DNA of 64,000 nt from [Leptolyngbya] sp. PCC 7376 (GTDB lineage: Bacteria > Cyanobacteriota > Cyanobacteriia > Cyanobacteriales > MRBY01): contig NC_019683.1 in assembly GCF_000316605.1 (NCBI RefSeq), positions 2,712,036-2,776,035 on the forward strand, in the 5' to 3' direction. Every line of letters starts with the position of its first letter. Positions within the stretch are counted from its first letter, which is position 1. The notes under the pieces were generated by a model. The model saw nothing but the letters and a program-made list of their open reading frames with translations, was not told where the DNA came from and searched no databases. A program made the translations under genes and the position numbers. Below are positions 25,522-29,933 of this stretch, one piece after another.

Positions 25522-25759
25522 ATTATTCTCCCTATAGTTTGTTTATTGGCGTAGAGTTGCGATCGCCAATTTACAGAAACTAAGACAAGACTAGAAATTA
25601 CTAGTCACGTCTAAAATATATTTTTATGATAAAAACTTGAATTGATACCTTTATTTAGCTCACGACTAAGCGAAGAATAAATCAAGTAAAACTGCTGCCC
25701 CATACGTTTTTGCTAGCGTATAAACCCTAAGCACACCCTTATTTAAACTCTGTACAAAG
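25522..25759. other. rpsL-rpsG spacer
   Basis: 238 bases with no open frame of note and no strong terminator. A HIP1-containing segment lies at 25560-25567. The gap is long for ribosomal operon genes, so a second promoter for rpsG-fusA-tufA is possible but not identifiable by eye. Confidence 0.3.
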
Positions 25760-29805: not shown

Positions 29806-29824
29806 TCTCATCAACTAAATATCA

Positions 29825-29876
29825 AAAGGAGTAGGTTAAAGCTTATCGACCTGCTCCTTTGTTCTCTTCGATAAGC
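29825..29876 (+). promoter_or_regulatory. Two mutually exclusive hairpins between tufA and rpsJ
   Basis: Hairpin A: AAAGGAGTAGGT (29825-29836) pairs with ACCTGCTCCTTT (29849-29860), 12 pairs with one G-U, 12-base loop. Hairpin B: GCTTATCGA (29841-29849) pairs with TCGATAAGC (29868-29876), 9 perfect pairs. Hairpin B uses the loop and the end of A, so only one can form at a time, the pattern of an attenuator or processing switch. No long T-run follows, so simple termination is uncertain. Confidence 0.5.
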
Positions 29877-29933
29877 ATTGGGTAACTCTCAGCTTGAATC
29901 TACCCACAATTTGTACCTTGAAAAATCAAAAAT

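Follow-up and report, generated by a model that had tools for sequence, protein, structure and literature searches.

Organization of the tufA-rpsJ spacer

The window analysed here, i.e. the whole stretch of DNA, comprises 64 kb out of a 5.13 Mb chromosome, which is marked as cyanobacterial by the genes it carries and by its relatives. The gene order around the spacer of interest is rpsL, rpsG, fusA, tufA, a spacer of 128 nt, and rpsJ; the short rpsJ gene is followed by a frame of 212 aa, which we take to be LON-like. Apart from rpsJ, the gene names (rpsL, rpsG, fusA and tufA) are our assignments, made by recognition of the sequences. The order of tufA and rps10 has reportedly been the subject of earlier work in Spirulina. 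Within the spacer we identified a strong hairpin behind tufA (hairpin A), a second stem starting in its loop (stem B), a small hairpin, and a boxA-like element next to the rpsJ start (Table 1). The boxA-like element is the most conserved regulatory signal that we found in the spacer and lies outside the region described in the first-pass annotation of this DNA, which had dealt with stems A and B and had interpreted them as a switch.

Table 1. Features of the tufA-rpsJ region, in positions of the window.
Feature	Position	Strand	Basis and remarks
tufA (EF-Tu) CDS, 409 aa	28576..29805	+	open frame and sequence; name presumed by recognition, no family search
hairpin A, 5' arm	29825..29836	+	sequence AAAGGAGTAGGT; pairing and energies; strong stem similarly placed in 116/123 spacers
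hairpin A, 3' arm	29849..29860	+	sequence ACCTGCTCCTTT; followed by the weak U-rich tail GTTCTCTT at 29861-29868
stem B, 5' arm	29841..29849	+	sequence GCTTATCGA; 29841-29848 inside the loop of A, 29849 common to A and B
stem B, 3' arm	29868..29876	+	sequence TCGATAAGC; H-type pseudoknot possible together with A
small hairpin TGGGTA / TACCCA	29879..29906	+	upstream of the boxA-like element; from fold and sequence
boxA-like element GTACCTTGAAAAAT	29913..29926	+	predicted NusB-S10 site; pattern match, leader conservation, likeness to rRNA boxA
rpsJ (ribosomal protein S10 = NusE), 105 aa	29934..30251	+	PF00338 match, E 6.2e-36

Pairing and folding of stems A and B

Hairpin A is formed by 12 pairs, one of which is U-G, and a 13th U-G pair is possible, while all pairs of stem B are perfect; the pairing therefore bears out the existence of both stems. 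The segment 29790-29920 folds better than its shuffled versions (z -3.23), with an equally good fold in 1 of 200 shuffles. The energies of the bare stems are -18.5 kcal/mol for A with 13 pairs, -16.9 kcal/mol for A with 12 pairs and -10.6 kcal/mol for B. In the whole spacer (29806-29933) the best fold reaches -27.1 with A enforced and -23.0 with B enforced, and across four choices of segment the A fold is better by 3.2 to 6.1 kcal/mol, so that the gap is smaller in context than between the bare stems.

The first-pass annotation had stated that the two hairpins overlap and that the formation of one excludes the other. The overlap is real for a single base, 29849, whereas the remaining eight bases of the 5' arm of B are located in the loop of A. 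Because only this base is claimed by both stems, a 12-pair A and an 8-pair B can coexist, with a first loop of 4 nt, 0 nt between the stems and a last loop of 8 nt. This pseudoknot geometry, together with the single conflicting base, argues against mutual exclusion as the logic of the spacer, and A and B may form an H-type pseudoknot in cells. Another candidate role for hairpin A, sequestration of a start site by its Shine-Dalgarno-like AAAGGAG, was rejected by eye, as no start codon is found at a fitting distance. Rfam yielded no match above the gathering cut-off over the window; below it, the spacer has three weak matches, the best of them with E 1.

When considered as an intrinsic terminator, hairpin A offers a G+C-rich stem and a weak tail, in agreement with the earlier remark that a long U-run is missing. 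A terminator scan with a loop limit of 8 omits hairpin A, which has a loop of 10-12 nt. A simple scan detected no promoter-like site between hairpin A and rpsJ, and therefore rpsJ would need read-through.

Conservation of hairpin A in cyanobacteria and support for stem B within the genus

We surveyed hairpin A in those 123 of 139 distinct cyanobacterial rpsJ leaders (the sample is described in the next section) that show an identifiable end of tufA within 420 nt. In 116 of the 123 spacers the first 80 nt after the tufA stop contain a stem with 8 or more pairs, 4 or more of them G-C, with a median start about 20 nt past the stop, and the z of the spacer fold is below -2 in 109 of the 123. As to the letters of the stems, GGAG, CAGCAG or GAG(C/T/A)AG is found in 85 of 116, and CTGCT, CTACTC or GCTCC in 86 of 116. 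The tails behind them contain on average 4.9 T in 12 nt, the longest T run is 2-4 in 90 of 116, and a clean U run is rare. The loop has at most 6 nt in 74 of the 116 strong stems, which therefore have no room for a B-like stem. The plain reading of this conservation and shape is that hairpin A would serve as a conserved leaky terminator or as a stabiliser of the mRNA end, with termination at this site presumably leaky.

Stem B was compared in six species of the family, all from one genus. Three of them (L001, the genome studied here, L016 and L017) show pairing of the loop of A with sequence that starts 8-13 nt past the stem, and each of these carriers has the 5' arm of B within the A loop. 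Shuffled downstream sequence equals this loop-downstream pairing at frequencies of 0.003, 0.07 and 0.04 in the three carriers, which is significant or borderline; the values for the other three members of the genus (0.18, 0.61 and 0.60) are not significant. In the alignment of the three carriers (A3) 56 of 60 cells of stems A and B are paired (93.3%), compared to 33.3-50.0% for slid versions, and this paired-cell score was reached in 6 of 500 shuffles. Two of the 8 pairs of B are changed on both sides and one pair on one side, as counted on three related sequences with the reference structure taken from one of them. For each doubly changed pair, one of the three sequences has no pairing at that place. 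Two doubly changed pairs are also obtained with slides of +1 and +2, but only 45-50% of cells pair there.

The first-pass annotation had proposed paired-base covariation in relatives as a check. In this respect, an A-like hairpin is conserved in cyanobacteria and B has compensating changes in three of six members of the genus; in the other three B lacks significance. Stem B is thus likely real in half of the genus and unproven in the rest. The lack of significance in these three members and the 74 short loops lead us to conclude that a switch between A and B is not the conserved function of the spacer. In some members of the genus, B would extend hairpin A to give a putative H-type pseudoknot, which forms part of a joint explanation that we consider somewhat probable.

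A boxA-like element upstream of rpsJ

The element GTACCTTGAAAAAT ends 7 nt upstream of the rpsJ ATG, and no Shine-Dalgarno sequence is visible by eye before this gene. The genome carries a boxA of its own, GCACCTTGAAAACTGCA, in the 16S-23S spacer between the second tRNA and the 23S gene, and GTACCTTGAAAAAT is identical to this rRNA-spacer boxA at 12 of 14 positions. A small hairpin precedes the rRNA-spacer boxA, and the small hairpin of the rpsJ leader occupies the same place directly 5' of its boxA; it may correspond to the boxB hairpin found in the rRNA spacer. A boxA reading GAACCTTGAAAA and a D4 region CTGCATA are given for the 16S-23S spacer of Thermoleptolyngbya in a passage of PMC8461337. 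The relevant part of PMC5725501 describes boxA as the RNA site of NusB together with NusE, and NusE is S10. The earlier remark that S10 is also NusE gains substance from this element, which resembles the landing site of S10 itself and stands beside the start of its gene.

The only perfect match to the motif GNACCTNGANAANT in the window is the element of the rpsJ leader, and 0 of 56 other upstream regions in the window come within 2 mismatches, these being the upstreams of mechanically called ORFs of at least 120 aa, many of them spurious. Matches with at most one mismatch are not enriched in the window (3, compared to 4.34 expected by chance). There are 41 perfect matches in the whole genome, 30 of which read GTACCTTGAAAAGT. 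We read 21 of these 30 places (e.g. L112-L118) and found common flanks, indicating one repeated element, presumably a transposase gene; since the 21 loci lie in one repeated element, the GTACCTTGAAAAGT places provide no evidence. Outside the repeated element the genome has 11 perfect matches, no more than the 13 that the reversed pattern yields. What makes the motif informative is where it stands and not how often it occurs.

In order to describe the conservation of the element we examined 178 rpsJ loci, 177 of which have a start (L247 was left out). A first start finder missed 27 of the 178 starts and a second one recovered 26 of them. Removal of leaders with identical last 80 nt resulted in 139 cyanobacterial leaders and 31 that belong to the same phylum but not to the class, where cyanobacterial refers to the own genus, order and class by kinship labels and to named cyanobacterial records. 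The boxA score is based on 10 fixed positions and was searched in the last 60 nt of each leader. A boxA with at most one mismatch is present in 132 of the 139 distinct cyanobacterial leaders and is perfect in 109, counts that are descriptive because the pattern was drawn from such leaders. Shuffled leaders are expected to give 0.26 of 137 at this threshold. Outside the class a single leader of 31 matches with at most one mismatch (L248), probably by chance. Independent of the choice of pattern are the match to the rRNA boxA and the contrasts with shuffles, with out-of-class leaders and with the 56 ORF upstreams.

The seven leaders that miss by 2 or more positions (L027, L028, L035, L092, L271, L276 and L283) comprise, as judged by eye, four with a drifted boxA and three without boxA. 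Measured in 130 leaders, the distance from the 14-mer to the rpsJ start ranges from 4 to 41 nt, and in 116 of them it does not exceed 20 nt. The boxA is less paired than the upstream leader in 115 of 132 cases, which carries little weight because the upstream part includes hairpin A. We also considered whether position 2 of the motif tracks the rRNA boxA, and discarded this idea: the tracking is confined to the genus (GCACC in four matching genomes of six, with C or T in rpsJ), and across genera it is lost, as in G018 and G045, where rpsJ has GTACC but the putative rRNA boxA reads GAACCTTGAAAACTGCA. Putative rRNA boxA sequences were matched in 32 of 60 genomes, and only one of the two copies in the genome studied here is confirmed as rRNA.

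Occurrence of the motif outside rpsJ leaders

The psbA gene encodes the D1 protein of photosystem II, which is heavily made. The motif GNACCTNGANAANT with at most one mismatch is found in 19 of 31 psbA leaders, 14-22 nt before the start, compared to 0.07 of 31 for shuffles; 8 of 12 rows within the genus and 11 of 19 outside it carry the motif at this threshold. These rows represent 31 of 38 loci, after L150, L217, L220, L223, L235, L237 and L239 were dropped as not fitting the psbA text pattern; L222, with an ill-placed start, was kept as a miss, and several rows are copies in one genome. Two of the three psbA copies evaluated in the genome studied here carry the motif (L111 and L137, the latter being the same as L144 and L149), and L151 is the copy without it. 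Further psbA loci with the motif are L141-L143 and L146-L148, and those outside the genus are L218, L219, L221, L226-L228, L230, L231, L233, L234 and L236.

More generally, a scan of 60 genomes for the motif with an ATG 3-30 nt behind it gave 445 places in 59 genomes, compared to 107 with the reversed pattern; G021, with 105 against 3, was left out of these sums. Such places exceed the control in 58 of 60 genomes. Several of them are inside coding sequences or inside RNAs without an assigned family, and the matches at L205 and L206 presumably lie within the coding sequence of allophycocyanin beta.

The motif was also observed near untranslated RNAs. On the minus strand of L180, at the locus centre, it stands 29 nt upstream of a CRISPR-like array in which an 18-mer occurs 12 times (gaps of 70-78 in the eight shown), and on the minus strand of L202 it precedes a row of five tRNAs by about 105 nt. 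Motif matches that resemble one another form two sets, located in seemingly structured, partly multi-copy RNAs (L167, L204, L194, L212 and L179 in one set, L181, L213 and L208 in the other). Rfam searches on L179, L181, L200 (the L167 site), L208, L212 and L213 returned only a tRNA in L212, and nothing was obtained at E 0.1 for L167, L181, L194 and L208.

Proposed model and alternative explanations

We examined the genome for the proteins expected to act on a boxA. Two matches to PF01029 exceed the cut-off, one of which, a frame of 214 aa, we read as NusB. The Rho RNA-binding domain PF07497 has 0 matches in this genome, while the same search was positive in 9 of 14 control genomes. Therefore, a repression of rpsJ by NusB-S10, if real, must do without a Rho-dependent step.

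The explanation that we favour, with slightly better than even confidence, is that the spacer holds two separate devices, a hairpin behind tufA and a boxA that would place rpsJ under autoregulation by NusB-S10. Hairpin A, aided here by B, would mark the 3' end of the str mRNA or stabilise it, as a leaky terminator or a processing end, and read-through or processing would feed rpsJ. NusB and S10 would bind the boxA that lies 7 nt before the rpsJ ATG, and the bound complex would bar 30S subunits from this start, so that free S10 would repress its own synthesis, while new rRNA with the same boxA would compete NusB-S10 away. Both the binding and the repression are suggested by the likeness of the sequences and the identity of the gene, and the predicted outcome is autoregulation of S10 at the level of rpsJ translation. 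Since rpsJ follows tufA in these genomes, it would benefit from a separate control. A boxA found nearly class-wide before the gene of a boxA-binding protein would constitute a simple feedback loop between S10 and the synthesis of rRNA, and the organisms concerned seem to lack the Rho-based half of the E. coli mechanism.

It is quite possible, if somewhat short of probable, that hairpin A by itself functions as an ordinary intrinsic terminator of the str operon, B being a chance pairing or a minor addition. The conserved place and strength of the hairpin would be expected from such a terminator, and B is supported in part of the genus only. Against this stand the few T behind the stem, the compensating changes in B, and the need for read-through in a spacer that has no promoter-like site between A and rpsJ.

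An unlikely alternative for the boxA is that, as in rRNA operons, it serves antitermination or RNA polymerase processivity instead of repressing the translation of S10. The rpsJ boxA is nearly identical to that of the rRNA spacer, and the motif also precedes untranslated RNAs, namely the CRISPR-like array of L180 and the tRNA cluster of L202. However, only the short rpsJ gene and the 212-aa frame follow it here, it lies close to the start codon (4-41 nt), and it cannot rescue transcription from the strong spacer hairpin because it is located downstream of that hairpin.

Somewhat less probable still is a translation or mRNA-stability element common to rpsJ and psbA leaders, whose likeness to boxA would be secondary. 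While the occurrence of the motif in 19 of 31 psbA leaders and the missing Shine-Dalgarno sequence before rpsJ would suit such an element, the motif matches an untranslated rRNA spacer and a published boxA, rpsJ encodes a boxA-binding protein, and the motif was not found before the 56 other ORFs of the window. Alternatively, the psbA leaders could belong to a Nus-factor regulon: in Rho-less cyanobacteria NusB-S10 would act on rpsJ and psbA leaders, and free S10, hence rRNA output, would set both S10 synthesis and psbA translation. We regard this wider regulon as doubtful; if psbA leaders are bound too, ribosome supply and photosystem repair would be under one sensor.

Finally, the attenuator or antiterminator of the first-pass annotation, with A and B as alternative folds, is very unlikely, given that the two existing stems share a single conflicting base, that A forms first and is the better fold in all four segments tried (even if more sequence brings the B-containing fold within 3.2 to 6.1 kcal/mol and one scan ranks a B-containing hairpin as the best single hairpin, at -17.6), that the 5' arm of B is within the A loop in all three carriers, and that B is weak in 3 of 6 genus members.

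Relation to known systems

The closest parallel to the autoregulation proposed here is found in Proteobacteria. Baniulyte et al. 2017 (PMC5725501) predicted a boxA before rpsJ in three gamma-proteobacterial genera, in a search that was limited to gamma-proteobacteria and to perfect GYTCTTTAANA, and the same study reports boxA repression of E. coli suhB, mainly by a block of translation. As in those systems, the boxA of our locus lies no more than 50 nt before a Nus factor gene, and rpsJ itself is among the targets predicted there; in contrast to those systems, the cyanobacterial element has a different consensus and occurs in nearly all cyanobacterial leaders examined. Unlike in E. coli suhB, no Rho was found here for the second step of the mechanism. 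The cyanobacterial rpsJ boxA is possibly a Rho-free variant of the known boxA autoregulation of Nus factors.

The 16S-23S spacer boxA of cyanobacteria, as given in the portion of PMC8461337 cited above, has the same core letters, both in its published form and in the copy of the present genome, but the rpsJ element stands in an mRNA leader beside a start codon and has an A-rich sequence in place of CTGCATA. Our literature search, which covered mainly titles and abstracts with most subscription journals outside it, found no report of a boxA before cyanobacterial rpsJ or psbA.

Two other leader elements are comparable in part. The Peptostreptococcaceae rpsJ motif (PMC11109978) is likewise a leader element before rpsJ, but it is structured, belongs to another phylum, and is presented in the relevant passage with no mention of boxA. 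The mycobacterial rpsO leader, as described in the review PMC10931766, also places a pseudoknot in the mRNA of a ribosomal protein; the pseudoknot proposed here differs in lying behind tufA, with about 57 nt between it and the rpsJ start, and in being supported in part of one genus only. The same review mentions a likeness of the cyanobacterial rpsL-rpsG region to the S7-binding region of 16S rRNA. In our window the rpsL-rpsG spacer (25522-25759) is long and folds better than its shuffled versions (z -2.80).
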